The notes beneath the pieces were generated by a model, which made no database searches, had not been told where the DNA came from, and worked only from the letters and a program-made list of their open reading frames with translations. Position numbers and translations under genes: made by a program. A stretch of 64,000 nucleotides of DNA from Rhizophagus irregularis (Eukaryota; Glomeromycota; Glomeromycetes; Glomerales; Glomeraceae), in NCBI RefSeq assembly GCF_026210795.1, contig NC_089429.1, positions 3,286,001 to 3,350,000 of the forward strand. The letters run 5' to 3'. Shown here piece after piece: positions 2,628-40,595 of this stretch; the stretch's first letter is position 1; the number at the start of each line of letters is the position of its first letter.

Positions 2628-5600
2628 ATGGGTTCATACGACTATGATACACAGCGAACGAATCCGGCAGGAGTCGGACATAAGAATAATCACGCTGCCA
2701 CAGAAGTAGCGGAGACAGAAGAAGTAAAGCATCTGAAATCTCAATATAAAAACGAATTGACGAAACTACAAGAAATAACTACTGAATGGTCAGAAGCAGA
2801 TTTGCTCTTTGCCTTGCAAGAAAATCAAGGAGACCTTGAGGTTACAATTAATCGAATCATGGAAGGTTAGTCTTTAATTTTTACCAAAAGTACAATAACT
2901 GCAAAGAGAATTATTTTGATTTTAAATTCGCACAAGAATTTTCATGATAGTCTTATTATTCTAACGATTGCGTTTCAGAAAAACAATAATTAATTTTTTA
3001 CCTAAACTATAATTATTATGAAATTATGAATGAGAGTAGTATTATAAGCTTTTTATTTAATCGTAATTTGTTATATAATAGAAGTTGATCGATACTGGAC
3101 ATGTAGAAGCAATTCATTTTTTTTATGACATTTATAGTTCCTTAAACAATAAATAATAGACTAGAGATAAATTAAAAAATTTTATATTGCATGATCTCAA
3201 TTACAACGAAAAGAATTTTTTATTTAACTTGAAACTAAGATTTCTTTATTTTATTCCCTTTTTTTTAATAGGCCACATCTCTAAATGGGGTGAGGTTAAA
3301 TCTCGAAAATCTAAGAAAGAACATAGTAGTAAGAATAAACAAAGTGGACAACAATTTGGTAACGCTCAACGTGGACATCAGAAAGGTGGTTATAGTGACC
3401 GTGGCAGGGCCCGCGGTGGTAAGTAAATTTTAAATAACATGTGTAAAATATCATATTTTATCAAAGGCGATTTTGAAATATCATTTTGTTTATTTTTGTT
3501 TAGAGGGTGGACGTAGCGGAAGAAATAGTGATCGTACTCGAGGGTCAAGAAGAGAAAACGGTTCAGGCATGTTATTTATTTAAAATTAAATAATTTATTT
3601 CTGATATTATAATTCTTTTTTCTTTTTTTCCGGAAATAGGAGGCTATACTCGACCTCCACGTCAACAAAATGGGACCAATCACGATGATACAAACAACAT
3701 CACCCACGGTAAGGCATGGGGCACTGATAATACCAGTAGCTCCAGAAATAACAACAATGATAGCAACGATAATACTAGCACTTGGACAACTGAAAATGTT
3801 ATTGGAGATTGGTCTACCGATATTACAGCCCAAGGTGGTTCATGGTCAGCTGAAAATCCAGCAGAAAATGCCAAAAGTAGTTGGGCCAGTGATAGTATTG
3901 ACAAAGCTCAGAGTAGTCGGAGCAAAGAAAATCCTACGGACGGATGGAGTGGTGATAATACCCAACAGAGTGTTAAAGGTGTTCGGACAGCTGATGCAAC
4001 AGAAAGTAATAATATCAGTACGGATAATAATATTGCGACAAGTCGAGATATAGACAAAGCTACTGATAGCCTAAAACATAATCGAGATTCCAACGTTGCA
4101 AAGGATAATTGGGACACTGAACATCCTAAAGATAATTGGGGTGTAGAAAATGATAGTTGGGCTGCAGATAATCCGAAAGATAATTGGGGCTCTGACGATT
4201 TTGGAGTTGATACAACTAAGAATGGTAAAAATGTGAAGGAAGTTTCAAAATCTCCAAACACTGTAATGAAATCTGTAGCTCCTACAAAATCACCAGTTTC
4301 AAATAGTTTACGGACAATTCCTCCTAAGCCCAAGGCATCTTGGGCTCAAATTGTGAAGTGTGTTTTCGATCATGTCTTCATTAAATGTTTACAATGTAGT
4401 TTTTATAATATAAATATATATATATATAAAATATATGTATATATATAATTATATATTAATCTTTTTTTTAATCATATATTATTAATATGTCGGTTGTTAG
4501 ACCTGAATCAAAACCCGAACCGAAACCTGAATTATTATCCACACCTATACATAAGAATCCTGAAATCGTAAAACCAGTGTCTCCACAGATATCGAAATCT
4601 CCAAATCCTGTACAATCTCCTCAGGCGCCAAAATTAGAGTCAGCCATTGCTCTTCCACAGGAATCATTAGGTACATCATCGGTGATAACTACAAAGGCTG
4701 AAGAAATGAAAGAATATGCTAGAGAAGTTACTTCTCCTGAAGCGCCAACCGCTACCATTGTAACATCATCTACACCTGTTGTAAATGTTTCACCACGCGC
4801 AAAAGAAGTTTCTCCTCCGGGTCTTAAAGCTAAAACGAGTACAGCTACGCGTAGATTGAAGCAAGATACTCCTGTTGTAATGCCTAATACAGGCGCGGGT
4901 TTGGAAAGAGTTGGTGTACAATTTGGAAGTTTAAGCATATCGAATAATAATAATGTGGAAGAATCATCAGAGACTGAACCGCAAATTGTACCTCAGGTTA
5001 AGACTGAAGAACGATCATCTGTATCAGTTGAAACCTCACCTCAACCGCAAACTACTCCAATTCAACAGCAACAACAAATAATCCCGCAACAATCGGTTCA
5101 GCAATTACAACAAGTGTCACAACAACAAGTGGCCCAGCAAGCGACACAACAGTTGCAACAGCCAACTACACAACTGCAACAACAATTACAGCCGCCACAG
5201 TCATCTCAACCACAATCTTCAACTCTTTCACAATCAAATTCTATTAATAGACTTCCTACAACGTCTGCTCAAGCATTACCATCATCGGTCAGTAGTGCTC
5301 CAACTGGGGCGCTCGCGAATGCCCCGAATCAAAACTTCAATCCTTCTAATCCTTCTTACTTCAAGCAGCAACAAGATCAATCATCTTATTTGAATCAACA
5401 ACATCATTTAGGGTTAACAGAGCCAATTAGTGCTCCATATGCATCTTATCTTCCTAATCAGCCACCTAATCAACTATCCGGGTTTGGTATCGGACCTATT
5501 CCGGAATATAATACAATGTATGGACCAGATGCGCAACGCATAATGGTATGTGATGATATTAAAATTATTTTTTATTGTAACATTCTTAGCTTATTATATA

Positions 5601-10249: not shown

Positions 10250-10251
10250 TA

Positions 10252-11213
10252 CAGTCAACTCTCTTTATAGTCACACATTTGGGACAGTTATATTTGGTGA
10301 TTATAAAGAGATGTGACTATATAAAAAATTTCTTATATTTGTATATCATAATTCTGGCCAAAAATTAACATAATTTTGGTTAGAATTATATTTAAAACTT
10401 TATTGTATCATAACTCTGTCAATATTAATCGTAGAGAGAAATGATCTTACTACCATTCGATTCGTCTTAATGAGATGGTTCTAATGGTGTAAAATACATT
10501 AAAATCCAATCATTAGATTAATTTTCAAAATTAAAAAATATTAATGCTTTTTGTGTAATAACTCTGCCAATATTGATCCTAGAGAGACGATCTTACTACC
10601 ATTCAATTCGTCTTGATGAGATAAATTTAATGGTATAAGATACATCGAAATTCAATTACTAGATCAATTTCCAAAAATTAAAAAATATTAAATGGTTTTT
10701 AAGTAGTAACTCTGTCAATATTGATCACAAAGAGATGAGTTTACCACCATTCGATTCGTCTTGATGAGGCGATTTCAACGAGCTATTAATCATCTTTTTA
10801 TAATCACTAGGTACTGAAAAATTTAGCAAAATGTTAAGTGGCGCAGTGAACGTAAATCAAAAAATATTATAATGCTGATGTTTAACATTTTGTTGAATAA
10901 CTCATCAGCTAGTGATCATAAAAAGATAAAATTACTACCATTTGATTCGTCTCAATAAGATGATTCTAACAAGCTATGGTACATCTTTATACGATTATTA
11001 GATGCCAAGTTATTTAATATATTTCATTATATACTGTAATTATAAACAGTTTTTTTTAATATAAGATTTTTGAGGATAAGTGTGATAGTGACTATAGATA
11101 TATTGTGACTATATAGGATAGATTTTAATAATAAAGTGTTTTGAACATTCAACTGGTGTAACTATATAGTAGAATGTGACTATAATGGAAGTGATTATAG
11201 AGGGAGTTAACTG
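10252..11213 (+). mobile_element. pogo/Tigger-like MITE, copy 1
   Basis: This is a 962-bp non-coding element with terminal inverted repeats CAGTCAACTCTCTTTATAGT and, at the far end, GAGGGAGTTAACTG. It is flanked by TA (10250-10251, 11214-11215). CAGT-type ends with TA duplication are typical of the pogo/Tigger branch of Tc1/mariner. The interior is built of several diverged copies of a module with CATTCGATTCGTCTTGATGA followed by GAGCTAT-like and GATCAxTAG words. The second copy, at 15922-17025, is in the opposite orientation. There is no transposase, so it is non-autonomous. Confidence 0.85.
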
Positions 11214-11215
11214 TA

Positions 11216-11446
11216 CTACAAAAATTGCGATATCCAACTTGTCATCCTTCTTATCACCTGAGTGATCATCAATTTTTAAAATTAGTAACACCAAGCCACC
11301 ATGACGATCAAATTTTCCAGTATCCCCCCATCCCCCAAAGAAAATAAAATTATACTGAAAAAAACAAACAAGAAAAACAAAAAGCCAAAAATAAAAACAT
11401 AAACCTCAGGAAAACTCAAAGTACAATGAGAAAAACCTGAGTAAAC
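11216..11446. other. Spacer between MITE and CACTG element
   Basis: No gene is certain. On the minus strand, about 11216-11320 stays open and reads GGLVLLILKIDDHSGDKK, which is less A/T-rich than its surroundings and could be a decayed exon. It is cut by the MITE at 11213, and I do not recognise it. Confidence 0.25.
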
Positions 11447-12540
11447 CACTGGTTAAAATTAATGCTATCAGGTACATATCGGTACTATATATCAGTGACT
11501 AATCAGATACATATCAGACATTTATTACATATCAGGTACCTGATATGTAACATATTAAATATGCCTAAAAATCGAATTCCCAATATCTAAACAATTAGTC
11601 ACTGATATGTAATACTGAATCAATCTTACACATATCGCAAAATATTTATTTATTGTATTTGTATTATATAATCCAAAGAGGTATATTAAAATTATTACTA
11701 AAAAAAGTATTTTAATATTAAAGATAATCGTTTATTCATATAAAACCCCTTATTTTCAATTTTTTTTTATTTTTTCTGATATCACGAATAACTGACAAAA
11801 ATATTAAAAATATACATATTTTATTTTAAAATTAATTGGATTGAATGTTCAAATTAATCTTACATACAACTTTATTTTAATCAATTCACACTGGTCGAAT
11901 GAAGGGCTACCGGGTAAATTTCATATACCCGATAGCCCTATTATATGTTTTCGATTTTAACCTGAATGGCAGCTGATCGATCCACCCGATTTGTGACCGG
12001 TTCTCGGCGCAGATCAGGTATAAGTCATGTGACTTTCAGGTTAGAACATAACGGTAAAGTGCTATATGAATATCGGGAGAATTTCAGCAATCCGATATTT
12101 CTCCGAACTATTTATAATATTAGATGTATATTTGCTACATCGAAACCCGAAACTTATTATTTATTCATTTATATATACTATATATTATTCATTTATTTAT
12201 TTATTTAACATAATAACATATATATATATTTATTTTATTATTATATTTTTAAAAATTATATTCGTTAATTTATCCTATTCTATCTATCTACATTATGTTG
12301 TTAATGGTTTGGAATATTATTCCAGTTGGTTCGATTCCAACAAACAACTATTTTTCCCAAAGTTTTTATGCCAACTCTTCCGAACTATTGCCTACTAATA
12401 CCAAACGAATTAAGCAGAAGATGGATATTAGATTGTGGTGGATTAGGTTGATTTTGACTTGGTAAAATTGTGAGTGAAATATTATTTCGTTCTCTATAAA
12501 AAAAGAACGTTTAGTAAACGTTCTTAACGAAAAATATTAA

Positions 12541-14990
12541 AAAAAATAAGTTCTGGTACCTTGTGTCAATTTCATCTTGAGCGAATTACCTACAAGAAAA
12601 CGAAAAAAGTAACGTTAAAAATGTTACAAAAAAAAATAGAAAAACCCTTCTATTTACCTTTCGTCCAAAGTCCAGTTCGTAATCTTGTCTGGCGTTCCTA
12701 CTTAAAAAAGAAAGAAACGTTAGTACGTTTCTTTAAAACAATTAAACACCATACACCGCATTATCCCATATACCTAAGTCCAGGTTCTCCCAAATTCCTA
12801 GGAGTCCGGTAATCTAAAAAAACAAAAAAGAAATGTTAATACGTTTCTTTAACATAATTAAACACCAACGCTATACACTTCCCCATATACTTTACCGGGT
12901 TCTTCCAAATTCCTAGGAGTCCGGTAACCTAAAAAAATGAAAAAAAAGAAACGTTAATACGTTTCTTTAATACAATTAACGCCATACACTCCTCCCATAT
13001 ATTTTACCAGATTCTTCCAAGTCCGGTAACCTAAGAAAATGAAAAAAGAAACGTTAATACGTTTCTTTAACACAATCAAACGTCATACGCCACCCATATA
13101 TTATACCGAGACTTCCAAGTTCCTAGGAGTCCGGTAACCTAAAAAAATTGAAAAAAAGAACGTTGATACGTTTCTTTAACAGCCCCCATATATCTAAATC
13201 CGATTTATTGAAAAAAAAATATTTAGTTTCGACAAAAAAACTTACCGAATTTAAATACCGAGCTCAACAAATCCTACAAAAAAAGAAAAAGAAACGTTAA
13301 AACGTTTCTTAATAAAAAAATAAAGTTTCGTAACGATTTTCGTTACGAAACTTACCATTTCGACCTTAGAGTACCGGAGCGGCGGAGCCTACAGATTCTA
13401 CAAAAAAAAAATAATAAGAACGTTAGAAACGTTCTTTGAAAAATAAAAAAAATATTGAAAGTTTGAAACTTACCCTCTCTTAGGCCTTAGCATCCCAGTC
13501 CGGTATAAAAGTCGAAGGGAGCCTACAAAAATAAATAAAGAAACATTAGTAACGTTTCTTTAAAAAAAAAAATAAAAAAAAGAATCGAAGTTTCAAAACG
13601 AAACTTCGAAACCTAACCGAAATCCAATATCCAGAGAGTATCTACAAAAAGAAGAAACGTTAATATAACGTTTCTTACAAAAAAAAGAATAAAAAAAGAT
13701 TGTTTCGCAACGTTTAAACTTACCGTTTCGAAACACCGAGCCGAACACTTGAACCTACAAAAAAAGAGAGAAACGTTAATATAACGTTTCTCAAAGAAAA
13801 AAATTTTTTTAAGTTTCGTAACGTAACTAAATGTCGCGAAACTCACCGTCATTTCGAATTTCACAAGGCCGAAATACTTGAACCTACAAAAAAAGAGAGA
13901 AACGTTAATATAACGTTTCTTACAAAAAAATAAATAAAAAATAAGTTTCGCGTTGTGAAACTTACCATTCGAGGTTTGCCATTTCGAAGCTCCCCACTTG
14001 AACCTACAAAAAAAAGAGAGAAACGTCAGAATAACGTTTCTCAAACTCTCAAAGAAAAAAATTGTAAGTTTCGCAACGCGTTGCGAAACTTACCGTTCGT
14101 TTCGTTGAAAAATGAAAAAAGATATTTCGAAGTATACTTGAAGTATATCTTCGAAATGTCGAATTTAATTTCGTCCGTCTAAGGAGCCGTCCAAAAGAAA
14201 CCGAACCTAAAAGAAAAAAAACGAAACGTTAATAAACGTTTCGTTGAAAAAAAACAAAAAAAAATATATTTCGAAGTATACTTCAAGTATACCTTCGAAA
14301 TGTCGAGTAAGGAGCCGCCCAAAGAAGTCGAACCTAAAAAAGCAAAAAAAACGAAGCGTTAATAAACGTTTCGTTGAAAAAAAAAACCCAAAAAAGAAAG
14401 ACATTTTGAAGTATATATACCTTCAAAATGTCTTATTGATTTCCGTCCGTCCAAGAAGCCAAGAAGCCGCCCAAAGAAGCCGAACCTAAAAGAAAAAGAA
14501 ACGAAACGTTAATAAACGTTTCGTTAGTCGAAAAAACAAAAAAATAATTATTTCGAAGTATACTCGAAGTATACCTTCGAAATATCGAGTTCCGTCTCCA
14601 AGGAGCTGCCCAGCCGAACCTAAAAAAGCAAAAAAACGAAGCGTTAATAAACGTTTCGCTAGTCGAAAAAATAAAAAAATAAATTATTTCGAAGAAGTAT
14701 ACCTTCGAAATGTCGAATTCCGAACCTATACCTTCGGCGTTCTGGACCTAAAAAATAAAAAAGAATATTAGTGCTAACGTTCATTAAAACAAATAAAAAA
14801 AAATTTTTTGCTTACTCCGGAAGACTGGAACTAATTTAGATACCGGTATATGTCTTCGGCTTCCTTAAAGTCTCCAAGAGTCCGGCGTTTCCTTCAAAAG
14901 AAAAGAAGTCCGGAGACTACTAAAGTGAAACTTTTTAATCCGTTTCTGCATGTTGCAGATTATATTCCGAACGTTGGACGAGCTTGCCAG
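12541..14990 (-). repeat. Tandem array of exon-intron-like units with hairpins
   Basis: At least 18 units spaced about 80-150 bp each contain a hairpin of the type GAAACGTTAATATAACGTTTC (examples near 12948, 13655, 13899, 14223, 14637). Many have a second hairpin beside it (AAGTTTCG...CGAAACTT or TTTCGAAGTATACTTC). On the minus strand each hairpin lies between a GTAAGT-like word and TTTTTTTGTAG, as in an intron; the pieces between are richer in G+C. Proximal units (12541-13200) are more decayed, with at least one donor GT changed to AT near 12990. The array fills most of the 3.5-kb element. Confidence 0.75.
13264..14333 (-). CDS. Micro-exon gene, partial reconstruction, unknown function
   Basis: Putative exons on the minus strand are 14293-14333, 14094-14206, 13966-14003, 13847-13883, 13724-13754, 13618-13641, 13474-13522, 13356-13397 and 13264-13273 (lengths 41, 113, 38, 37, 31, 24, 49, 42, 10 to the stop). 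Donors are GTAAGT (most), GTGAGT, GTTAGG and GTATAC; acceptors are T-rich, ending GTAG or TTAG. Joined, they give one open frame of 127 codons ending in TGA at 13264-13266, through eight junctions of mixed phase. Two exons encode related peptides (DFFGRLLTR and VSFGRLLRR) in the same frame, which supports translation. The upstream unit (14395-14480) also encodes FFGRLLGF but joins out of phase, so the 5' part is broken or misassigned. No domain is recognised and the start is unknown. Confidence 0.5.
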
Positions 14991-15476
14991 AAGTTAGAAA
15001 TTTGATTTCGAGTTAAATATTTGGTTCTTCAAAAGGTGTGATAAAAATTTATTTATTTAAAGTATTGTAAGAAAAAAGTTAAAAAAAAATTAACTTTAAA
15101 GTGTAAAAAAAAAAAAGTTTATCAATTAAAAAAAAGATCGAAGATTTTTGTGGGAATAGAAATAATTACATGCCGTAAATTATTCCAATGACCTATCAGA
15201 CTACTGATAGGTATAATAAAATTTTCTTGTCTTTAAAAAATCAGATTTTTTTCATAAAATATTATTAAACATTTCGGATTACCGATACTTGTAAATGTTT
15301 AATATTGCCTATCATGCCATATCGGGTTTCTGATTATTTCCTGATATTTGACCAATACGTTATTACCCGATATTTCATCATTTGACCAGTGTCATATAAA
15401 TGCCAATTGATAAGAATAACCTAATAAAAGTATTTAATTATAATATTTAATTATTTTTATGTTTTTTTACCCCCCT

Positions 15477-17290
15477 TTTTTTGCTTTTTTTGTTTTTTTT
15501 ATTTTTTATTTTTTTATTTTCATATTCATCATTAATTCATTATGATATTCGTCACTTTCTTCATCTTGATCAGTATTATAATCATATGTTGGAATTTCAT
15601 TTGTTGAACGATTAAAACTTTTAAGAGTTTTATCAGTCAGACACCAATTTGGTATATTCACTGGAGGCATACTTATTGTTGTTTTACATCTTTGAACTCT
15701 TTTAATTTTTAGAATTTGAGGTTTTTTCCTAACGGTTGGATCAATCTAATCATGTAATAAATGCTGAAGCTTTAATAAATAATTACTATTAATAAATAAA
15801 ATAAATAAAATAAAAAAAAATAATCATAAATATATAGTATATACTGCAGAAGAACACCACCATGTTTCATATATATGAATTGACATTGTCTTTTCTTTAA
15901 CAGCAGATTCTTCACCAATTACAGTCAATTCCCTCTATAGTCACTCCCGTTATAGTCACATTCTACTATATAGTCACACCAGTTGAATGTTCAAAACACT
16001 TTATTATTAAAATCTATCCTATATAGTCACAATCTATCTATAGTCACTATCACACCTATCCTCAAAAATCTTATATTAAAAAGAACCGTTTATAATCACG
16101 GTTATATAAAGAATATATTAAATAACTTGGCATCTAATAATCGTACAAAGATGTATCATAGCTTGTTAGAATCGTCTCACTGAGACGAATCGAATGGTGG
16201 TAGTTTTATCCTTTTCCTTTGCTATTGTTTACGGCCAGACCACCCATTGCCTCTTATGAGACTAATCTCGGGTCTGTGTCCTATCATCTTCAATAGGCAA
16301 CCATTAAACCGAGTACTTAATTCCTCAGGTAACAGCAGTTTTATCCTTTTCCGACCACTGGCTGACGAGTTATTCAACAAAATGTTAAACATCGGCATTA
16401 TAATATTTCTTGATTTACGTTTACTGCGCCATTTAACATTTTGCTAGATTTCTCGGTACCTAGTGATTGTAAGAAGACGATTTATAGCTCGTTGGAATCG
16501 CCTCATCGAGACGAATCGAATGGTGGTAAGCTCATCTCTCTGTGATCAATATTGACGGAGTTATTACTTAAAAACCATTTAATATTTTTTAATTTCGGAA
16601 ATTGATCTAGTGATTGGATTTCGATGTATCTTATACCATTAGATTCGTCTCATCAAGACGAATCGAATGGTAGTAAGATCGTCTTTCTAGGATCAATATT
16701 GGCAGAGTTATTACACAAAAACCATTAATATTTTTTTAATTTCGGAAATTAATCTAGTGATTGGATTTCTATATATTTTATACCATTAGAACCGTCTCAT
16801 CAAGACGAATCGAATGGCGGTAAGATCATCTCTCTACGATTAATATTGGCGAAGTTACGATACAATAAAGTTTTAAGTATAATTAATTAAAAAGTCTAAA
16901 ATTATGTTAATTTTTGGCCGGAATTATGATATACAAATATAAGAAATTTTTTATATAGTCACATCTCTTTATAATCACCAAATATGGACTGTCCCAAATG
17001 TGTGACTATAAAGAGAGTTGACTGTATATCATTTTCTTCATCAGAATCAGTTTCCTTCCACTCCTCCGAATGATAACCAGATTCCTTAAGAACTGCATGC
17101 CTCCTTCTCCGGGTATCTACAAATATATTTATCATTATTTTCTATTAAATAGTTTGCCGTTTGAGCTTTTCTTTTTTTTTCTAATAATAATAAATAATTA
17201 TAAAATTAAATAAAATTAACTAAATTCCCACTTCATATTAATAAAATGGTTACTAATGTCCATAGTTCTTGAATTCTTCTTTAATCTCAC
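15477..17290 (-). pseudogene. CACTG-element accessory gene, truncated copy
   Basis: This is the minus-strand copy of the gene at 34046-44128. Homologous exons read MPPVNIPNWCLTDKTLKSF, then IDPTVRKKPQILKIKRVQRC, then a piece with IRRYPEKEAC-like sequence, and finally the K/R-rich exon ending at 17290. It is split by the pogo-like MITE (15922-17025) and cut off in mid-exon at 17290, so it has no start. Where the 34-kb copy has lost an A in a run (near 34285), this copy keeps the frame, which helps locate the mutations. Confidence 0.65.
15922..17025 (-). mobile_element. pogo/Tigger-like MITE, copy 2
   Basis: A 1,104-bp element of the same family as 10252-11213, in the opposite orientation: CAGTCAATTCCCTCTATAG at the left end, GAGAGTTGACTG at the right. 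TA duplications are at 15920-15921 and 17026-17027. The paralogous DNA at 34481-34500 reads CACCAATTATATCATTTTC with one TA, a clean empty site. A ~150-bp segment around 16205-16350 (ACGGCCAGACCACCC...) has no match in copy 1 and accounts for the greater length. Confidence 0.9.
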
Positions 17291-17819: not shown

Positions 17820-20815
17820 CAAGCGAAAAATTGGTACATATTCGTTTCTGATTGCCGAAAGCAATGAAATTTGTATCATATTAATATCTTTAAAATATAA
17901 AGTCAGAAACGAAGATCAGAATGAACCTACTGTACATTGTTAAAGCTAAAATAGTGCCCAATCGGTAACGCTTTGATGTATAAAAGATCATTTGATGCAC
18001 ATACAACTCTTCCGCTATTAAGTTTTGGACCACATGCCGTCTCATCTCAAACATAATCGTATGGTTGTAATTCAGGTACATTTGAAAAAAATGAAATTGA
18101 CACATCATTAAAGCCTGAATAGTGTTCAAAAGTTTATCAAAATCGGTAGGTACATTTTCGTTTCTGATCGCTGAAAGCAGAAGTCAATTTGAAAAAAAGA
18201 GATTTGCATCATATTAACATCGTTAAAAAAGTTGTGCTAAAAAGAAAAATCGGTACGAACCTATATCATTAAAAGCTTAAATAGTCCTAAAAGTTAATCA
18301 AAATCGGTAGGTACATTTTTGTTTCTGATTGCTGAAAGCAGAAGTTGATTTGAAAAAAAAGAGATTTGCATCATATTCACATCTTTAAAAAAAGATAGAA
18401 ACAAAAATTGGAATAAACCTACATCATTAAAAGCTTAAATTGTGCTAAAAGTTAATCGAAATTGGTAGGTACATTTTCGTTTCTGATTGCTGAAAGCAGA
18501 AGTCAATTTGAAAAAAAAATGAGATTTGCGTTATATTAAAATCTTTAAAAAAAAATTAGAAACAAAAATCGGTACGAACCTACATCATTAAAAGCTTAAA
18601 TGGTACCTAAAAGTTCATCGAAATTGGTGGGTACATTTTCGTTTCTGATTGCTGAAAGCAGAAGTCAATTTGAAAAAAAATGAGATTTGCGTTATATTAA
18701 AATCTTTAAAAAAAAGTTAGAAACGAAAATCGGTATGAACTTACATCATTAAAAGCTTAAATGGTGCTTAAAAGTTCATCAAAATCGGTGGGTACATTTT
18801 CGTTTCCGATTGCTGAAAGCAGAAGTCGATTTGAAAAAAAATGAGATTTACGTCATATTAAAATCTTTAAAAAAAGTTAGAAACGAAAATCGGTACGAAC
18901 TTATATCATTAAAAGCTTAAATGGTACCTAAAAGTTCATCAAAATCGGTAGGTACATTTTCGTTTCCGATCACTAAAAGCAGAAGTTGATTTGAAAAAAA
19001 AGAGATTTGCATCATATTCACATCTTTAAAAAAAGTTAAAAACAAAAATCAAAATGAACCTACATCATTAAAAGCTTAAATAGTACCTAAAAGTTCATCA
19101 AAATCGGTAGGTACATTTTCGTTTCCAATTGCTGAAAGCAGAAGTTGATTTGAAAAAAAAAGAGATTTGCATCATATTCACATCTTTAAAAAAAGTTAGA
19201 AACAAAAATTGGAATGAACCTACATCATTAAAAGCTTAAATAGTACCTAAAAGTTCATCGAAATCGGTGGGTACATTTTCATTTCCGATCGCTGAAAGCA
19301 GAAGTCGATTTGAAAAAAAAAATGAGATTTGCGTCATATTAAAATTTTTAAAAAAAAGTTAGAAATGAAAATCGGTACGAACCTACATCATTAAAAGCTT
19401 AAATGGTACCTAAAAGTTCATCGAAATCGGTAGGTACATTTTCGTTTCTGATCGCTCAAAGCAGAAGTTGATTTGAAAAAAAATGAGATTTGCGTCATAT
19501 TAAAATCTTTAAAAAAAGTTAGAAATGAAAATCGGTACAAACCTACATCATTAAAAGCTTAAATGGTACCTAAAAGTTCATCGAAATCGGTAGGTACATT
19601 TTCGTTTCCGATCGCTAAAAGCAGAAGTTGATTTGAAAAAAAAAATGAAATTGACATCATTAAAGCTTGAATAGTGTTCAAAAGTTCATCAAAATCGGTA
19701 GGTACATTTTTGTTTCCGATTGCTGAAAGCAGAAGTTGATTTGAAAAAAAAAAAATGAAATTGACATTATTAAAGCTTGAATAGTGTTCAAAAGTTCATC
19801 AAAATCGGTAGGTACATTTTTGTTTCCGATTGCTGAAAGCAGAAGTTGATTTGAAAAAAAAAGAGATTTGCATCATATTCACATCTTTAAAAAAAGTTAG
19901 AAACAAAAATCGGAATGAACCTACATCATTAAAAGCTTAAATTATACCTAAAAGTTCATCGAAATCGGTAGGTACATTTTCATTTCCGATCGCTGAAAGC
20001 AGAAGTTGATTTGAAAAAAAAAATGAAATTGACATCATTAAAGCTTGAATAGTGTTCAAAAGTTCATCAAATCGGTAGGTACATTTTCATTTCCGATTGC
20101 TGAAAGCAGAAGTTGATTTGAAAAAAAAAGAGATTTGCATCATATTCACATCTTTAAAAAAAGTTAGAAACAAAAATCGGAATGAACCTACATCATTAAA
20201 AGCTTAAATAGTACCTAAAAGTTCATCAAAATCAGTAGGTACATTTTCGTTTCCGATTGCTGAAAGCAGAAGTCGATTTGAAAAAAAAATGAGATTTGCG
20301 TCATATTAAAATCTTTAAAAAAAGTTAGAAACGAAAATCAGTACGAACCTACATCATTAAAAGCTTAAATGGTGCCTAAAAGTTCATCGAAATCGGTAGG
20401 TACATTTTCGTTTCTGATTGCTGAAAGCAGAAGTTGATTTGAAAAAAAAAAAATGAAATTGACACATCATTAAAGCCTGAATAGTGTTCAAAGTTCATCA
20501 AAATCGGTAGGTACATTTTTGTTTCTGATCGCTGAAAGTAGAAAAAAATGAGATTTGCATCATATTCACATCTTTAAAAAAAGTTAGAAAACAAAAATCG
20601 GAACAAATCTACATTATTAAAAGCTTAAATAGTGCCTAAAAGTTCATCGAAATCGGTCTGTACATTTTCGTTTCCGATTGCTGAAAGCAGAAGTCGATTT
20701 GAAAAAAAATGAAACTTGCATTAAAAGCTTAAAAATAGTCCCAAAAGTTCAACGAAATCGGTAGGTACATTTTTGTTTCTGATCGCTGAAACAGAAACTG
20801 ATTGAATAAAAATTT
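17820..20815. repeat. ~160-bp satellite array
   Basis: About 20 tandem copies are phased by the words AAAATCGGTAGGTACATTTT, CGTTTCTGATTGCTGAAAGC, AGAAGTTGATTTG and CATCATTAAAAGCTTAAAT. GTACATTTT recurs near 18150, 18311, 18469, 18632, 18792, 18952, 19111, 19271, 19434, 19595, 19698, 19809, 19970, 20078, 20238, 20400, 20510, 20652 and 20765. Most steps are 158-163 bp, but several are ~103-111 bp because the part from AGATTTGCATCATATTCAC to ATGAACC is missing. There is no coding potential. Confidence 0.9.
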
Positions 20816-26276: not shown

Positions 26277-29255
26277 ATGTCCTTTCCTAATCCTAAACCT
26301 AACGAAACTCCTGACCAATATGTCACAATGGAAATCGATGAATCTATTATTATAGAAGGATCATCAGGAAAAGTAGTAAACTCGGAAAAAGATTCGGCTG
26401 AACAAGAATTAAGAAATTTACCCGAGGTTGATAATTATGAACCCGATTTTGAATATACCTCTCAAAAAAGGTGAAGACAAGACAAGTTTCAAGAACCTGA
26501 AGCTGATCAGAATAATGAAAATCCAGGCGATGATGATGATGGTGAAAGTGAAAGCGGTATTTCTCTAGATGATGATGTCACGTTTTTGAGTGATAATGAA
26601 ACTCCAGTTGAACAATTCACTGCCCTGACTTCGACAATAATTCAGAATTTGTATATCCTAATACAAATATTAATTACGCAGATTCTTGGATACTGATATG
26701 GATATATAAGTATCAATCAAGATTTCGCTTGTCGGACGTTGCAATAGATTCCTTGATCAAGTTTTTTCAGCAAATATTAATGGATGCTAATCAGGCGAGA
26801 TTCAAAAATTTCCCATCTTCTTTATATACTGCGAGTAAGTTGTTACAAGTCGGCAACCAATCAAAAACTTACGCAGTATGTCCAAGTTGTAATAGTTTGT
26901 ATAATATTGCTGAAGTTGTGGCAGAAGAAGGATCCAAATGCACACATGTAGAGTTTTCAATGCAATTAAAAGGAAAACCTTGTGGAATGGAATTAACCAT
27001 GCAAGCCCCGCTTGGTAATAGAAATAAAAATCGTCCGAAATTGTTATTTCCCTTGCCGAGTTTGAAGTTACAAATAAACAGTTTGTACCAACGATCAGGA
27101 ATCCAGCAGCAATTAAGAAAATGGACCAATCGGCACGTTGATAATGGTATGCTAACGGATATTTACGATGGTAAAATCTGAAAAAGTTTTTCTGACATTT
27201 CAGGCGCTCCATATTTTACACCAGAAACTGCAGATTCTCACTTGGGAATTATGATCAATCTTGACTGGTTTCAGCCCTTTGAATCGTCCGCATACAGTTG
27301 TGGGGCGATATATGGAGTGGTTTGTAACCTACCACGTGAAATTAGATTCAAAAAAGAAAATATGTTGACGCTTGGTCTACTACTAGGACCGAACGAAGTT
27401 AGGTTACACAAAATTAACCATTACCTCTTCCCGATTGTCGATGAATTATTAGAGTTCTGGAATGGAATTGAAATTCCTGCCGCTGAAAGAAAAATCTGAT
27501 TAGCATTAATATGCTGTTCAAATGATATTCCTGCAGCGAGGAAGTTCTGTAGTCATATATCTGCATCAGTTAGTTGTCATAGGTGCTATAAAAGAGCAAA
27601 TTCAATTTCAAATAAATTAAATTTTGGCGGCTTTGATGATATGAGTGAGTGGTTCGTAGAGAGAAATTTACTGAAACATCGGCAGGATGCTGAGAATTGG
27701 AGGTTATGTAAATCCTAAGAAAAAAGAAAACGTCAAGTAAGTTTGACTTCTATCAGATGGACCGAATTACTTCGATTGCCGTATTTCAATCTAATAAGGC
27801 ATCTTATCATAGATCTAATGCATTGTTTATTCTTCGGAATAGCCCATTAGATAATTAAAAAATTATGGATTGATGGTAATAAGATCACCAAACATGACCT
27901 AGAATTAATGGAAAAACGAGCAAAAATCATAAAAATACCTGCAGATTTGGGTAGAATTCCAAATAAAATCATAACCGGAGATGGATTTTCTGGATTTACG
28001 GCTAATCAATGGAAATCATTTATTCTAATTTATGCTATCCCATTGATGTGGGATTTGCTCAATGAACCAGATCGAAAAATTTTGGGAAATTTTGTTAGGG
28101 CTTGTACTCTATTAATTTGTCGAATTATTGATGATAAGACATTAAGTGAAGCTCATGAACATTTGCTCAAAGTTGCAATGTTAATTGAAGAAAATTATGG
28201 TCCAGAAAGGATTACTCCAAATTTCTATTTATGTCTTCATATTGCTGATTGTTGCCGGGATTATGGACCATTATATTCATTTTGGTGTTATTCTTTTGAA
28301 AGAATGAATGGAATCCTGGGTAGGTCATTATGATGATTGTTCAATTATTTTAACTTAATATTAATCATTTTTAAATAAAATATCAACAGGCTCTTTTCCT
28401 AACAGTCATCGCCAAATTGAACCCGAACTTCTACGTATCATCATGCAGCATTGGAGACTTGATGACCTTATATCCGTTCAATCAAATAACACTAAGCTTG
28501 TTGAAGCTTTAAAGCTAATAAAGCCACGGGCAACTTCCAGAAGTTTAGCAGCCTATGATAATTTTGAATTTTCTGAGCTGTGTCAATATAGGAAAATTTT
28601 TGTTCAAGAAGTTGATGATACAATTGTCGGTAATGAGCCATTTTCTGGTGAAATGCTCACACCACGTAGAATTCAGGTTGATTTACCTGATAATATTTAT
28701 CAAATCCTGACCGATTATTATAGTAATGATTACGACTTACAATTTACAACAATTGCCGATTCGATATCATCCAGTTCAAGGGACTCGATTGTTGTACCAA
28801 ATATGATTAATCAGTTTGGCCATGTCCAAATTGCAGCAGAAATTATCAGATCAGCGATGTCATCCCGATACTTGAAAAATGCGTGTATTTTGGCAAAGTT
28901 TATCCAAGAAAACTGAGGAAATGAAACAACAGACTTATTTCCTGGCCAGGTTCAATATTATTTTGAGCATACTATCACGATATCAGGTGAATCTAAAACT
29001 CATCGATTGGCATTCGTCAGATGGTACAGACTGGCACCAAACTGACTTATACGATTTTATACAAATATCGATGAGAATGATAAAAGTTCAAATATTGAAC
29101 TTTGGCAAAATGATTTTTATGATATAAGCCGAGACTGTATAATTCCAATTCATTACATATATAGCCGATTTGTATCTAGTGAATTTGTAACTGGTAAAAA
29201 GAAGCTCGTCGCATATAAAGCTGTAATACCAATAAATAGACAATTTCATTTATAA
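26277..29255 (+). pseudogene. TNP2-family CACTA transposase, outer copy, decayed
   Basis: Homologous along its length to the better copy at 44609-48095. Order: an acidic N-terminal part (26277-26650); a CxxC zinc-binding start (VCPSCNSLYN, 26877-26907); YFTPETADSHLGIMINLDWF; NHYLFPIVDELLEFW; the NDIPAARKFCS block followed by CHRC; DLMHCLFFG (normally D-P-M-H); and CLHIADCCRDYGPLYSFW with FERMNG just before an intron at 28318-28388. The second exon runs to PINRQFHL and TAA at 29255. TNP2 is the DDE transposase of plant and fungal CACTA elements. Damage: in-frame stops near 26472, 27179, 27497, 27717 and 27848, 28914, and frame changes in the N-terminal part. Both copies share the intron site. 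Confidence 0.85.
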
Positions 29256-30397
29256 TAAATTTAAAATATAATTAAGTTTATAATAAAATAATATTTATTA
29301 AATCGCCAGTATGTTCATTTAGTTCTGAAACTCTTTCATTTCTCCTTTTTAATAAGTCTATATTTTGTCATGGTGCAAGTTATATAGACCTTTTTTGCCA
29401 AGTGCGTAAAAAAAAAAAAACTTAGGCAAAATCTCTAGTAAATTTAATTTAAAAGGAAATTTTGTGAAAAATTTTATTAAACTGATCATTGTCCAAAGAA
29501 AAAAAGTTAATTATTTATTGTTAAAAATTATTAAATGAAATGTTGTAATGTGTTATAAGAAATATAACATATGATAATAAACTTACTGATAAATGAATAA
29601 AATCAGATATAATATTGAACGGATATTAGTATTGTAAATCAATTTTTTAATTTTAATTTCTCGCAATAAACCTTTGACCAGAATTTTACTCATAGAGTGA
29701 ATATAGATAAAGAATTCATACCGATTTGCTGCTACCAATGGTACTATTAATGATGAGGTATATTTGAGAAACTCCGTTAAAATGAGCCTTTCGCGGATCC
29801 ATTCACGGAAAATGAAAATAATTCGATAAATTCCGTTATTTAATTCCGGAAATATGAGTCTTTTACGGAAAAAAGGTGGAATATAAAAAACAGATCGACC
29901 TTTTTATAGGGTTACCTAAAATGAAGAGAAAAAAAGTAGCTTTCACCCATATGCTTGCCAATAGTTATTGATTGTTGAACCATTGTATCCGAATAGAATG
30001 GTTACCATTATTTGAGTTTTGGGCTTAGTCGACACATTCGACGGAGGGATTATTATTTACGGAACTAGTATTACCTAAAAAGGGAGTTGTTTCCAAGAGT
30101 TAGTGAAACTGCGTTACCCATATGCTGATCGATAGTTGTTGAACTGAAAATGTTGAACTGTTGTATTCGAATAGAATGGGAATACAATGCAAAAAGCTAA
30201 GTAAGACTTATCCTTTGGATCCACAAGACCGGTATTTTAGCTGAGCGTTAACCCTGCAGGAACTTACCATTATTGGCTTCTTGAACTTAATACAAACGTA
30301 TAGCCCATCTTCGCTGCCCTCGTAAACCTTTCTTTATACGACTATTAAAACTTTATTTGCCGCGCTTACAGATATCTTACTTTTTATACTTCCAGAT
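29256..30397. other. Intergenic DNA with a MITE remnant
   Basis: There is no gene. The segment ~29760-29920 has GGATCCATTCACGGA words and ends TTTTTATAGGGTTACC, the same end as the Harbinger-like MITE at 54485-54683, so a decayed relative is likely. Two diverged direct repeats around 29940-30170 (CCATATGCTxxxxGATAGTTxTTGA) are also visible. Confidence 0.4.
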
Positions 30398-31636
30398 CTT
30401 ATAAATCGACGTGTTATTAATCCTGATAATCCAATTATTAATTTATGAATATCTGGTGATGGGAAAAACGTAGGACGTAAGGTTAAACATGTGATTATTA
30501 CATGTGTAATATTAGATGATATTACGAACCTGCATAAATCTGATTATCATTATACAATTATTTTATATCCAGGAACTGAAAATTACGAATTACTACAAAG
30601 AATGATAGAACCAATATCTAACGAATTAAATGATTTGGTATTGAATGGATTAAGAGATTCAAATGGTACAATATGGACAATCAATCCATATTTTAGTAGT
30701 GATTGGAAATTTATGGCAATTGTACTTGGCTTTAATGCTCCCAATTCAAAACATTTTTGCCCTTGGTGCCTTTGTACAAAAGAGAATATTGGAAATAAAC
30801 ACAAGGTTTGTGTTATTGAAAAAACTATGGATCAAATTAAGTTAAAGCCACCACCAGGGCATGTTAAATCTCCTTTACTTCAAATGATTCCTTTAAGTCA
30901 CTATGTTCCAGACGAGTTATACATAATGTTGCGAATTTGGGATAGGTTATAGGATTTAATACTACAAGAACTCAAAACACAAAATCAATTTAATGATTTA
31001 GCAAGAGCAAAGATTCTTGCCAAAATGCGTAGGATTTCAATTTTATTCAATTTTTGGCAGGAACAGGGAACGCAAAATTGGTCTTATACATCTTTAATGG
31101 GAGGAGATAAGGAAAAAGTATTAAAAAACTTTAATTTTCGAGTTGTTTTTGCTGAAGAACGTGCATTTTTAATCAACCAATTATGGAGAAATTTTTATGA
31201 ACTTTATAATAATATGAAATCTCAAAAAATTAATCCAAGTCACTTTGCAGACCAGGCAAAGCAATGGTTAGATTTGTTTCTTACTCCCTTCCAAGGTAAG
31301 CCCAATACTATTACTTTCAAGATGGGTTTATATCGTTCAAAAGATGTAACACCTTACATGCATGTTTTAGTTCACCATTTACCCGAATTTATGGAACAAC
31401 ATCAGAAGTTTGGATTAAGTGCTTTTTCATGTGCTCCTGTTAAAAAAAAAAATCACGATCAAGTTTCTGCATTTTTTCGAAAAACAATGAAAGATGGCGG
31501 AAAGGGTATAGAAAGAAAATCAGCTATTTTTGAGATTTTACATTATGAAAATAGATCGTTATATTTTGCTCAAAAGGGTACTATAGATAAATACTTCAAA
31601 CCACAACATATTCACGTTAAAAAATTAAAAAAATAA
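30398..31636 (+). pseudogene. DDE-type transposase relative (RNase H fold suspected)
   Basis: One reading frame of ~410 codons is broken only by TGA (30446-30448) and TAG (30950-30952). The first stop lies immediately before ISGDGKNVGRKVKH, the second after LRIWDRL. Visible landmarks are an acidic SGDG site, SDWKFMAIVLGFNAPNSKHF followed by CPWC, and a late HVLVHHLPEFMEQH histidine pair, then KKKNHDQVSAFFRKT. The order D, D, CxxC, HxxxH, (E) matches the layout of CACTA/Transib/RAG-type DDE enzymes with a zinc-binding insertion. The residue where I would expect the third acidic residue, just before KKNHD, is lysine (GTTAAAAAAAAAAAT). I cannot name the family. It is convergent with the zinc-finger gene at 31760-32461. 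Confidence 0.6.
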
Positions 31637-33479: not shown

Positions 33480-35136
33480 GTAATTAATTCGATCTTAATT
33501 ATGATACTTTGTATATACACTGGTCAAAATTGATGCTATCGGGTACATATCGGGTACCTATATATCAGTGACTAATCAGATACATATCGGACATTTATTA
33601 CATATCGGGTACCCGATATGTAACATATCAAATATGCCTAAAAATCAGATTTCCGATATCTAAACGATTAGTCACTGATATGTAACACTGAATCAATCTT
33701 ACACATATCGGGTACCAATATGCAAAATATTTATTTATTGTATTTGTATTATATAATTCAAAGAGGTATATTAAAATTATTACTAAAAAAAGTATTTTAA
33801 TATTAAAGATAATCGTTTATTCATATAAAACCCCTTATTTTCAATTTTTTTTTATTTTTTCTGATATCACGAATAACTGACGAAAATATTAAAAATATAC
33901 ATATTTTATTTTAAAATTAATTGGATTGAATGTTCAAATTAATCTTACATACAACTTTATTTTAATCAATTCGTATAAATGCCAATTGATAAGAATAACC
34001 TAATAAAAGTATTTAATCATAATATTTAATTATTTTTATGTTTTTTTACCCCCTTTTTTTGCTTTTTTTGTTTTTTTTATTTTTTATTTTTTTATTTTCA
34101 TATTCATCGTTATGATATTCGTCACTTTCTTCATCTTGATCAGTATTATAATCATATGTTGGAATTTCATTTGTTGAACGATTAAATCTTTTAAGAGCCT
34201 CGTCGGTCAGACACCAATTTGGTGTATCCACTGGAGGCATACTTGTTGTTGTTTTACATCTTTGAACTCTTTTAATTTTAGAATTCGAGGTTTTTTCCTC
34301 AGTTTTTCAACGGTCGGATCAATCCGATCATGTAATAAACGCTGAAGCTTTAATAAATAATTACTATTAATAAATAAAATAAATAAAATAATCATAAATA
34401 TATAGTACATACTGCAGAAGAACGCCACCATGTTTTATATATATGAATTGACATTGTTTTTTCTTTAACAGCAGATTCTTCACCAATTATATCATTTTCT
34501 TCATCAGAATCAGTTTCCTCCCACTCCTCTGAATGATAACCAGATTCCTTAAGAATTCGTACAAGCTCCTTCTCCGGGTATCTACGAATGTATTTATCAT
34601 TATTTTCTATTAAATAGTTTGCCGCTTGAGCTCTTCTTTTTTTTTTCTATAATAATAAATAATTATAAAATTAAATAAAATTAACTAAATTCCCACTTCA
34701 TATTAATAAAATGGTTACTAATGTCCATAGTTCTTGAATTCTTCTTTAATCTCCTCCTATCCATTTTCACTTTGTCATCTCTTTGCTTCTTTATATTGCT
34801 TACACGATGGCGTGAACACCAACGTCCATGTAACATCTTTAAGATATCACTATTCGAAACATTATACTTTTTGTTGACTAACTTATAAAGCGGTGGAAGT
34901 AATTTTGTAATTATATTTTCTTTTTCTTTCAACCACGTACGATCGCTATCGATCTCATATATATCCTTAAATTCAGAATCTACCCAGATAAAGACTTCTT
35001 TCTATAAATAATAAATAAACGTAAATATTTGGGAAAATTCAATGACAGATAATAAAAAAATACTTACTTTAATTGTTCGATACATATTTTGATTCAAATG
35101 AATAGCATTGTCTGACAAGGATGAAGATGAATAGGT

Positions 35137-35712
35137 TGTAATAACTGAAAATATAATAAATAAATGACGCAGTAAATCCTGTGGCGCAGTAGGTCACATG
35201 ATATGGTTACACAAGAAGAAATGGTTGGGAATACAAAAGTCACGTGACAAGTCACATGGCGCAGTAAATGACGGATAAACATTTAGCCGATGGATAAATA
35301 ATTAGCCAATAAAATTATATTTATAGTTTAGTTTAGTGTAACAAGAAAGTCATATGATAATACATCTTTTATTTCTTATTATTCTTAGAATTTTGATAGA
35401 GAGAAAGAGTAGTAGATAGTAGAAATGATTTTCTTAAAATGTATAAATACAAGTGGATTTCGATAGGAAATTCCGCAGTTCAATTTTTGAAAAAAAAATA
35501 AAATTTTTAATTCGCCTTTAATAAAAACTAACACATTCTTTTTGCCTTTTTCTTATGAGTAAAAAGTGCCACATTAATTATTTTAATTAATGGTTTATTA
35601 ATGTTTTGTAACTAAATTTTATTTTAAACCAAGCATAGATATTATACGAACTCAACACGTCGGTGGCAACATACGATATTTTATCTTAATATCCTATGGG
35701 CGGCGTGTCACA
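35137..35712 (+). repeat. 5' LTR of the Gypsy element
   Basis: Begins TGTAATAACTGAAAATAT and ends GGGCGGCGTGTCACA. It has three GGCGCAGTA-type words near the start (GTGGCGCAGTAGGTCACATG). It is identical in length to the 3' LTR and carries the element's promoter by definition. Confidence 0.95.
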
Positions 35713-35716
35713 TTTT

Positions 35717-35734
35717 TGGTGCATGCTCACGAGA
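35717..35734 (+). other. Putative primer-binding site
   Basis: TGGTGCATGCTCACGAGA starts 4 bases after the 5' LTR; TGG would pair with the CCA end of a tRNA. The primer tRNA cannot be named from the sequence. Confidence 0.45.
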
Positions 35735-35834
35735 AAATAAAAGATTGTTGTCTTCATACAAAATCTAAATAAGAAATAAAAGAAAAGTATATGAGAAAAT
35801 GAAAGAAAAAATTTGTAAAATTGATAAGAAAGGA

Positions 35835-35995
35835 AAGATGATATGAGAAATCATCAAAGAAATATAAGAAAGGAAAGATGATATGAGAAATCATCAAAGA
35901 AATATAAGAAAGGAAAGATGATATGAGAAATCATCAAAGAAATATAAGAAAGGAAGGATGATATGTAAAATCATCAAAGAAATGATAAGATAAGG
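35835..35995 (+). repeat. 40-bp tandem repeat in the Gypsy leader
   Basis: About four copies of a 40-bp unit (GATATGAGAAATCATCAAAG / AAATATAAGAAAGGAAAGAT), nearly identical. It lies in the untranslated leader between the primer-binding site and gag. Confidence 0.85.
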
Positions 35996-36330
35996 AAGAC
36001 TTATCTGAAATATGAGAAAAATGTTACTATATATGAAAAAGGATATAGTAAAAGTAATATTATGAAAAAGGAATATTACGGAATATATGAGAAATGAAAT
36101 ATACGATATATTGAAAAAGTATATATCAAAAAGATGAATGAAATATTCAAGATAAAAAGAAAAAGATTTAAAAATTGAATGAAAATAAAAATTTATAATA
36201 AGAAAATATTAATGAATTATAAAATGAAATGCGAGAAATAAAATAATATGAAATAGATTTGAAATAAATATTTTGGAAGTTAATATAAGAAAAAGATTAA
36301 AAGTCATTAAAAGTTTAATGTTGTGTATGG

Positions 36331-36413
36331 AACTGGGAGGACCCAGTATAAATAAGCCTTTGTTGTTGATCATATTAGTCTGACACTGGGCGGCCCCAGT
36401 TATAAATAATCCC
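36331..36413 (+). promoter_or_regulatory. Duplicated CTGGGxGGxCCCAG-TATAAATA box
   Basis: Two copies of an imperfect palindrome joined to TATAAATAA occur 53 bp apart (36333-36357 and 36386-36413). It could be a promoter, an RNA hairpin or a packaging structure in the leader. The function is a guess; the repeat itself is clear. Confidence 0.4.
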
Positions 36414-36659
36414 TAGCCCTTGATCGCAGTTTATTTGCGCAAGATATAGAAAGTTTATAAAATCGTGATTATAGATTATAAATTATATTATAGAATGTAT
36501 AAAGAAATTATAGAATCAAAGCTGGAACTTTGAAAATATTAAAATTTAAATTGTATTTTAAAAGAAGTAAAAGATAAAATAGTAATTTAAATGATGATAA
36601 AAATTTTATAAAATATAAATAAAAGTGAAATTATGAAATGTTTAAATAAATAAAAAAAA

Positions 36660-39600: not shown

Positions 39601-39996
39601 AAATATGGAAGAGATTTAGATAATGACTATAATGAAATGGAAATTGAAGATGTCCCAATACCACCAAAAAGAGAATATGATATGAAAATGGATATTGATG
39701 GTGAAAGAAAAGGAGGATTTTCTAATAAAGAAGATAGAGATAAAGCATATCAATCAAGAAGAAGACATAACCGATGTGAAAGATGTGGAGTAACAGGTCA
39801 TTTTATAAGAGAATGTCCAAACCCAGGAATGAAAAGAGGAAATAAAAATATTAGAGTACGAGTTAATGTACCACCAGAAAAATATGTAATGGATATGTAT
39901 AATGAAAAAGCGAATATAACATATGGACAAATTTACAATGAAAATCCAAAATTTAGAAGAATAGCTAGAAATTATAATGAAGATGATAATGCATGA
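36660..39996 (+). CDS. Gypsy gag with long N-terminal extension, frame break inside
   Basis: The frame 36660-38861 begins with ~577 residues of acidic, charged sequence containing a paired CxxC (ECPTC ... RICKSC). The retrotransposon-gag domain starts at MATEAQIRRIVENVTG (ATG at 38391), with TFSGKEDEDVNDWIRQFE. It runs out of frame at a run of eight A (38851-38858) followed by TGA. The rest of the domain (VEEYTRRFRSILRIA, YYIQGLEP) and two CCHC knuckles (CYECNEVGHIRPEC, CERCGVTGHFIREC) continue in the -1 frame to 39996. The break site reads GAA AAA AAA, a possible -1 slippery heptamer, but a one-base insertion is equally good. Gag forms the particle and binds RNA. Confidence 0.85.
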
Positions 39997-40563: not shown

Positions 40564-40595
40564 GTCTTGGCCATAATAATGGAGAGACATTAAAG

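Follow-up and report, generated by a model that had tools for sequence, protein, structure and literature searches.

A putative splicing array of hairpin-bearing introns and micro-exons in a CACTG transposon of Rhizophagus irregularis

A stretch of 64,000 nucleotides (nt) of the Rhizophagus irregularis genome (C1:3286001-3350000, here called the window) contains a CACTG-ended transposon whose interior is a tandem array of short introns and micro-exons. We describe this array, its copies, and similar arrays elsewhere in the genome searched, a 146.7-Mb assembly of 32 contigs. On the minus strand, from window position 14815 to 12494, there are 19 GT-AG introns (66-107 nt), read by eye, and 18 internal micro-exons (23-113 nt). 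The units are of three recurrent kinds: type A, in which the exon ends in ATTTCGAAG or similar, type B (GTTCAAG...), and type C (GTTACCGGACT...). The features are listed below, with expect values (E) for matches to R1, a model built from 25 array introns.

11890-15391, minus strand (from which the array is read): CACTG-ended transposon, 3502 nt, boundaries from copies among L010-L028
11887-11889, no strand: left target-site duplication TCA
15392-15394, no strand: right target-site duplication TCA
11890-11903, plus strand: left terminal inverted repeat CACTGGTCGAATGA
15378-15391, minus strand: right terminal inverted repeat, CACTGGTCAAATGA on the minus strand, near-complement of the left
14748-14815, minus strand: intron 1 (68 nt), weak branch-region stem
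14703-14747, minus strand: exon 2 (45 nt)
14620-14702, minus strand: intron 2, type A; the exon end ATTTCGAAG is able to pair with intron CTTCGAAAT
14575-14619, minus strand: exon 3 (45 nt)
14486-14574, minus strand: intron 3, type A
14421-14485, minus strand: exon 4 (65 nt)
14334-14420, minus strand: intron 4, type A; CATTTTGAAG pairs with CTTCAAAATG
14293-14333, minus strand: exon 5 (41 nt), first of the nine exons joined in an earlier, preliminary description
14207-14292, minus strand: intron 5, type A
14094-14206, minus strand: exon 6 (113 nt), includes a decayed type-A donor (GAAG followed by ATATAC)
14004-14093, minus strand: intron 6 (90 nt), R1 match, E 4e-10
14064-14093, minus strand: perfect 5' splice-site palindrome of intron 6, GTAAGTTTCGCAACG/CGTTGCGAAACTTAC
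13966-14003, minus strand: exon 7 (38 nt), peptides present in published models
13884-13965, minus strand: intron 7 (82 nt)
13847-13883, minus strand: exon 8 (37 nt)
13755-13846, minus strand: intron 8 (92 nt)
13724-13754, minus strand: exon 9 (31 nt), also with published-model peptides
13642-13723, minus strand: intron 9 (82 nt)
13618-13641, minus strand: exon 10 (24 nt), peptide joined to its neighbours in published models
13523-13617, minus strand: intron 10 (95 nt), GTTAGG donor; homologues in L032, L034 and L035
13474-13522, minus strand: exon 11 (49 nt), also with published-model peptides
13398-13473, minus strand: intron 11 (76 nt)
13356-13397, minus strand: exon 12 (42 nt), also with published-model peptides
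13274-13355, minus strand: intron 12 (82 nt), 5' hairpin at 13323-13355; R1 match, E 3.7e-10
13246-13273, minus strand: exon 13 (28 nt), contains the stop that closes a 127-codon frame
13139-13245, minus strand: intron 13 (107 nt), weak branch-region stem
13107-13138, minus strand: exon 14 (32 nt), type C unit
13031-13106, minus strand: intron 14 (76 nt), branch-point hairpin, without a significant donor stem
13008-13030, minus strand: exon 15 (23 nt)
12929-13007, minus strand: intron 15 (79 nt)
12896-12928, minus strand: exon 16 (33 nt), also with published-model peptides
12814-12895, minus strand: intron 16 (82 nt)
12774-12813, minus strand: exon 17 (40 nt), also with published-model peptides
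12698-12773, minus strand: intron 17 (76 nt), tandem acceptors AAG/TAG
12658-12697, minus strand: exon 18 (40 nt), resembles an exon of L029, L030 and L033
12590-12657, minus strand: intron 18 (68 nt)
12560-12589, minus strand: exon 19 (30 nt)
12494-12559, minus strand: intron 19 (66 nt)

The introns of the window copy have the attributes of U2-type introns, as judged by eye: GT-AG ends, a branch-point motif 18-45 nt upstream, and a T-rich tract. The 18 internal exons form a chain of micro-exons. The preliminary description had placed GC-richer minus-strand pieces between related, hairpin-bearing GT...AG introns here, inside a CACTG transposon, and our analysis agrees on both points. It had also counted eight introns of 76-95 nt; the array is there, but with 19 introns of 66-107 nt.

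Introns of this class had hairpins at two positions, at the donor and around the branch point. We examined 110 introns from eight arrays, using for the relatives of the window array a parser that demanded a GT-type donor, a T-rich body, and a branch-like motif. The branch-region stem had a mean of 8.5 Watson-Crick pairs, compared to 4.4 in shuffled sequences that were searched again in the identical way, and in 74 of the 110 introns (15 of 19 in the window copy) no more than 1 of 60 shuffles matched it. The branch motifs were mainly CTAAC (48) or TTAAC (29), at a median distance of 25 nt from the intron end; the parser required a motif, so only the predominance of these forms and their pairing are informative. 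In most introns, the branch point was in the loop or 3' arm of a small hairpin approximately 25 nt before the 3' splice site. The 110 introns and their 30-nt exon flanks contained 157 stems of at least 7 Watson-Crick pairs: 67 at the donor, 78 in the branch region, 12 elsewhere in the intron, and none centred in an exon.

The donor stems, present in many introns of the class, were either wholly intronic (GTAAGTTTCG..CGAAACTTA) or formed between the end of the exon and the start of the intron (ATTTCGAAG with GTATACTTCGAAAT), as in introns 2-5 of the window. The mean for 35 units with a stem across the exon-intron junction was 9.3 pairs, compared to 4.5 when the exon ends were shuffled (the highest of 300 shuffles was 5.4), and 8 of the 35 had fewer than 8 pairs. 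These units were collected by eye and include non-GT donors; an earlier, incomplete list had 29. The generic parser recovered few introns at L042-L046 (3, 3, 2 and 1), so units there were collected by eye. In L046 units, CTAAGATTC pairs with GAATCTTAG and CCAAGATTC with GAATCTTGG, a different stem sequence at the same place over the donor.

The paired positions covaried. Among all 31 distinct GTRAGTTT introns (76-100 nt), double changes were found in 14 of 25 pairs, with 44 double-change cells compared to 12.3 expected (standard deviation 2.9). The covariation score was 0.186, in contrast to 0.107 for shuffled sequences, and none of 500 shuffles scored as high. Pairing was 86% with the partners in place and 37-51% when they were slid by 1-3 columns. 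The hairpins had been proposed to help splicing by pairing the intron ends. Such help is plausible, given their covariation and their placement at the 5' splice site and branch point, although stems that include the donor may equally hinder splicing.

The reading of these sequences as introns is supported, indirectly, by one RNA-seq-aided gene model of this assembly that largely agrees with calls made beforehand. OCT59_027914 mapped letter for letter to one relative, L029, through 14 introns, and 11 of the 14 were identical to those that we had parsed from sequence alone; the other three comprised one alternative donor within an exon and two skips. In the relatives, where the parser imposed the intron features, these 11 introns alone confirm them. 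According to the available part of PMC10234402, the gene models of this assembly were made with BRAKER2 on Illumina RNA sequencing (RNA-seq) data and refined by Nanopore RNA-seq. Peptides of micro-exons of the window family, including that of the 24-nt exon 10, were found joined in RIR_jg models, which the accessible text on them describes as AUGUSTUS models with RNA-seq intron hints. A spliced copy in the genome was not seen: the 447 nt of joined exons had 222 matches and those listed were each within one exon, with an overhang of at most 5 nt.

From its sequence, the element that contains the array is a non-autonomous CACTG (CACTA-like) transposon. It has CACTR terminal inverted repeats and a 3-base-pair (bp) target-site duplication, which is the length of duplication made by the CACTA-like superfamily. 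The open reading frame (ORF) list of the window contains no long ORF in the element and none of transposase length, and no autonomous partner was identified. We count at least 18 copies in the genome: L028 and 17 others that match at 93-100% identity across 1020 nt or more of 1070. L016 and L018 have one recognised end each. Matching 3-bp flanks were present in 10 of the 16 copies with both ends recognised and absent in 6, and CACTG was at both ends of the window copy and of 14 of the 15 other two-ended copies (L025 has CGCTG at one end). The substitution difference from the window copy was 0.37-0.83% in 11 of the 15 complete aligned copies, and this low divergence indicates that the family has moved recently. 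One copy, L020, has a 376-nt insertion in intron 12.

The left end of the element matched 41 places in the genome, some of them diverged, and we opened two diverged matches. L042 is a 5.15-kb element with another array of roughly like design, read by eye, in which matches to R1 begin at E 8.8e-6. L043 has mostly the left end in common (74% over 489 nt) and few R1 matches. Besides its array, L042 (C5:1945000-1951500) has tandem repeats around GGTGCGAAACTC and GTGCGTTTCGCAC, at approximately 3000-3800 of the locus.

The CACTG element is nested within an outer element (10250-17026 of the window) that has long inverted repeats: a perfect 39-nt inverted repeat (TACAGTCAACTCTC...) and inverted arms of approximately 1 kb with 147-nt tandem repeats. 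We rejected this outer element as the vehicle of the array, as other copies end at 11890 and 15391, a rejection qualified by the diverged copy L026, which likewise has long-repeat arms nearby. A terminal sequence like that of the outer element (TACAGTCAACTCCC...) comes after the array in L048.

The window array appears to be one member of a class that is spread over the R. irregularis genome. Seven diverged relatives (L029-L035; approximately 69% identity) have the same architecture and, among the pairs listed, have flanking sequence in common with one another. L029, the one of these checked for CACTG ends by eye, had none that we found. Units common to the window and the relatives include exon 18 (L029, L030 and L033), the exon 10-intron 10 pair (L032, L034 and L035), and type-A units (L033). 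We also ran the genome search with the intron hairpin that the preliminary description had proposed. A strict donor-hairpin pattern, GTAAGTTTCGN{3,15}CGAAACTT, had 626 exact matches and the reversed control had none, with both strands counted together and a few palindromic sites counted per strand. The first 100 matches listed, from approximately 22 Mb, fell into 43 clusters, 20 of them singletons; by proportion there may be roughly 290 such places genome-wide, not all of which need be arrays. In 42 distinct inner sequences of at least 9 nt from these 100 matches, there was a mean of 3.64 inner donor-stem pairs compared to 0.41 when shuffled. We opened five singletons and one two-match cluster (L044-L049) and found an array at each of the six; exon and stem sequences differed in some. 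The 13 further matched loci that were opened, 7 from similarity and 6 from the pattern, all held arrays, and the array is not limited to one transposon. Outside the array, the best R1 match in the window had E 0.79, and L036 had none at E 0.1 or below.

L036 (C8:9800-16000, minus strand) is near the L029 array and contains a decayed transposase gene, presumably hAT-like, with apparently ordinary introns. We take it to be hAT-like from its motifs and a sub-threshold BED finger match; in Pfam, its pieces had no match singly, and joined they gave that sub-threshold match only. We rejected this gene as the owner of the arrays: a piece of it occurs at 10 places and none but L029 is within 10 kb of an array place listed from the similarity search or among the first 100 of the 626 pattern matches.

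The comparisons among copies support growth of the array by duplication of about whole exon-intron units. The type-A region is 476 nt in L028 and 745 nt in the window copy, a difference of approximately two units, and a simple count of type-A donor motifs gave 2 and 5, respectively. L023 is 152 nt longer overall than the window copy. Of the two origins that had been offered, tandem copying of an exon-intron unit is borne out: exons were copied along with their introns, and the length differences among copies correspond to roughly whole units. There is no support for repeated insertion of an introner, given that the exons flanking successive introns are homologous.

The joined exons had no sign of a constrained protein frame, the feature that would mark a micro-exon gene. 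The nine-exon, 127-codon frame reported previously is present as described, but it is within chance: the longest stop-free run in the window array, 128 codons, was matched by 641 of 2000 shuffles of exon order, 542 of 2000 phase jitters, and 29 of 500 dinucleotide shuffles. In the seven relatives, the longest frame was matched by 131 to 900 of 1000 phase jitters, in a test that joined only parsed exons shorter than 60 nt (14, 12, 10, 3, 13, 7 and 8 per array) and in which L032 says little. Exon lengths modulo 3 were 20/26/21 for 67 exons of the relatives and 6/6/6 for the 18 of the window. The two GRLL peptides noted earlier are also present, but their likeness is expected because exons 5 and 6 are neighbouring duplicated exons. 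The density of single-nucleotide polymorphisms (SNPs) among copies was 0.049 per base in exons and 0.048 in introns, with 0.010 in the element flanks; much of it falls in intron 6 and exon 7, and polymorphism among these young copies is too low for a codon test. After the frame tests in eight arrays, we rejected a coding gene as the primary reading, and the claim of a protein gene is not supported. There appears to be no single protein under evident constraint, though peptides may be expressed. Several R. irregularis proteins are apparently translated arrays: RIR_jg9867, jg38097, jg25979, jg40384, jg16750, jg30790 and jg8708, and OCT59_027914, OCT59_002750, OCT59_027179 and OCT59_006107, among which OCT59_027914 alone mapped exactly.

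We weighed these results against four other explanations. In one, the array is a protein-coding micro-exon gene like those of schistosomes, and alternative exon choice yields variable small proteins such as OCT59_027914 (153 amino acids) or RIR_jg9867 (99 amino acids). The published models of arrays in this and other assemblies fit this idea, as do P0027, which is open from the exon-1 ATG to the last exon across 14 introns, and the presence of that ATG in L029, L030, L031, L032 and L035. We nonetheless consider it unlikely, given frames within the range of phase jitter in the window and seven relatives and exon lengths that are free modulo 3. In addition, a difference of 1 nt separates paralogous exons, a frame begun at the exon-1 ATG closes after 20 codons in both L029 and L030, and published models disagree on the frame of homologous exons, using two or more (one exon is read ECRTKLRPGLWKKG in some and NAGRNYDPDFGRK in others). 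Slightly less likely still is a neutral passenger, that is, a captured intron-rich stretch that expands by slippage in selfish elements and whose palindromes stay perfect through template-switch mutation and not through selection. Young copies, equal SNP density in exons and introns, variation in unit number, and the decayed donor in exon 6 are all compatible with such a passenger, but it does not readily explain why stems of at least 7 bp concentrate at the donor and branch region and are never centred in the exon flanks, or why the donor stem of L046 occupies the same place with another sequence.

The remaining two are less likely again. Sister introns with symmetrical structure recall the introner-like elements and stwintrons of fungi (PMC8469720, as far as its available text goes), and a mobile element of that kind could have inserted repeatedly into a pre-existing exon. 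The same intron was not found at many unrelated exonic positions, however: successive exons share homology, which means that an exon was copied along with its intron, and the six sparse-match loci (5 of the 20 singletons and one two-match cluster, among 43 clusters) were arrays and not single introns of host genes, making this explanation very improbable. Hardly credible at all is an array of palindromic DNA sites, for example subterminal repeats bound by a transposase, that merely resembles introns. Short palindromic cores do recur at regular spacing, but donor, branch-like motif, T-tract and AG follow one another in a repeated order that is confined to one strand, and 11 of the 14 introns of an RNA-seq-aided model agree exactly with our calls.

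Based on these comparisons, we believe that the window contains what is probably a splicing array: tandem intron-defined spliceosomal introns and micro-exons, carried in a transposon and constrained for splicing and not for peptides. The anatomy, the covarying stems at two places, the growth by about whole units, and the lack of any sign of frame constraint are shown by the sequence itself; that such introns are called in RNA-seq-aided gene models of R. irregularis is indirect evidence of splicing.

Several observations weigh against this interpretation. The strict donor-stem test (matched by at most 2 of 100 shuffles) was passed by 60 of the 110 introns and by 3 of 19 in the window, where introns 14-17 fail it, and a third L046 unit disrupts two outer pairs that two others keep. 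A first count of covariation, on 25 of the 31 introns, gave a similar picture, but pair types were not above shuffles (106 of 500). A test in which arms were exchanged gave 79% compared to 53%, with swapped arms that were not re-optimised. Homology and partial redundancy among the introns mean that shuffles overstate their independence and inflate the scores; the structure was drawn from the sequences tested, which flatters the slide control; and the GT donor, T-rich body and branch motif were imposed by the parser, with the window introns read by eye. Covariation of exon C/T with intron G/A was dropped (script count 15,3;4,5, p 0.072; eye tally, p 0.028). Covariation could also be mimicked by mutation that makes palindromes perfect. 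Donors covered by a stem should pair less readily with U1, and a donor within a stem of 12-15 bp would delay splicing instead of aiding it. With regard to the gene models, the mapping script permits only GT/GC-AG introns and favours few introns, and there was no exact map for P0019 on L030 or for P0007 on L029. The models also mix RNA-seq hints with ab initio prediction, and exon skips that keep frames open are predictor-like.

If the array is spliced as we believe, the hairpins might act as follows. Exon definition cannot operate on exons as small as 24-45 nt, and recognition would therefore have to proceed intron by intron. The hairpins would compress the intron and present its donor and branch point, and by shortening the loops between donor, branch point and acceptor they may favour intron-wise recognition, with exons spliced one intron at a time. 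Peptides would be by-products. As the weakest step, the element might gain because its heavily spliced RNA leaves the nucleus or escapes silencing as a host-like message. R. irregularis has 40 Argonaute copies, according to the part of PMC11075540 available, so a silencing system to evade may exist; this benefit to the element is a guess that we hold weakly. With more doubt than belief, we can also imagine perhaps hundreds of self-expanding arrays in DNA transposons of this arbuscular mycorrhizal fungus, acting as a splicing cloak: splicing itself would be the sole conserved product, hairpins at donor and branch point would make the introns modular units defined by their structure, the RNA would pass as a spliced host message, and some orphan proteins would be by-products.

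Elsewhere in the window, positions 18102-20794 contain a repeat unit in 18 to 20 copies, mostly spaced by approximately 160 nt, and at positions 35000-44000 the GC skew stays strong, at 0.25 to 0.54 per kb, for approximately 9 kb. A run of several ORFs of 136-203 amino acids occupies 26729-31636, and the two tested there (27908-28333 and 31025-31636) had no match in Pfam.

The array resembles several described systems and differs from each. Capnodiales introner-like elements and the sister stwintrons of Hypoxylaceae, in the available text of PMC8469720 and PMC9860276, are likewise families of sister introns with hairpin-forming internal inverted repeats and intact spliceosomal signals. Those introns are described there as integrated at new gene positions, with stwintron terminal repeats of 45-55 nt, whereas the introns here multiply with exons head-to-tail, some in transposons, with a short hairpin at the donor and a separate one at the branch point. 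Schistosome micro-exon genes are also chains of very short exons, but the part of PMC10526429 available gives exons of 3-81 bp, introns of up to 5 kbp and secreted proteins; here the introns are 66-110 nt and structured, and the exons are without sign of frame constraint. The arrays are thus not introners, because exons are copied too, and not micro-exon genes, because there is no frame. The CACTA/CMC/EnSpm and Plavaka elements of R. irregularis likewise have CACTG terminal repeats in the accessible text of PMC11075540, whose main text contains no word beginning intron, exon or splic; in the element here no transposase was found and the interior is an intron array. SP7-like effector genes of Glomeromycotina, compared by description only, are R. 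irregularis genes with repeats and introns as well, but the available text of PMC11333574 describes a single conserved intron ahead of the first protein repeat, has no array of hairpin introns, and does not support identity of the array with such a gene. Among titles and abstract starts of the open-licence literature, we found no description of such arrays. Spliceosomal introns and CACTG transposons are each known; what is combined here departs in a defining respect from every intron or exon family tested and, if borne out by RNA data, would be a genome feature of a new kind.

If the junctions are used, the arrays would be a large natural set of introns whose two reactive sites tend to fall in covarying hairpins, and a test bed for the control of intron definition by RNA structure. 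For gene counts, some small annotated R. irregularis proteins (e.g., OCT59_027914) come from arrays and may not be proteins, making the arrays a likely source of false orphan genes in this fungus. If our interpretation is true, introns can multiply by tandem exon-intron duplication, partly in transposons, in a manner distinct from introners.

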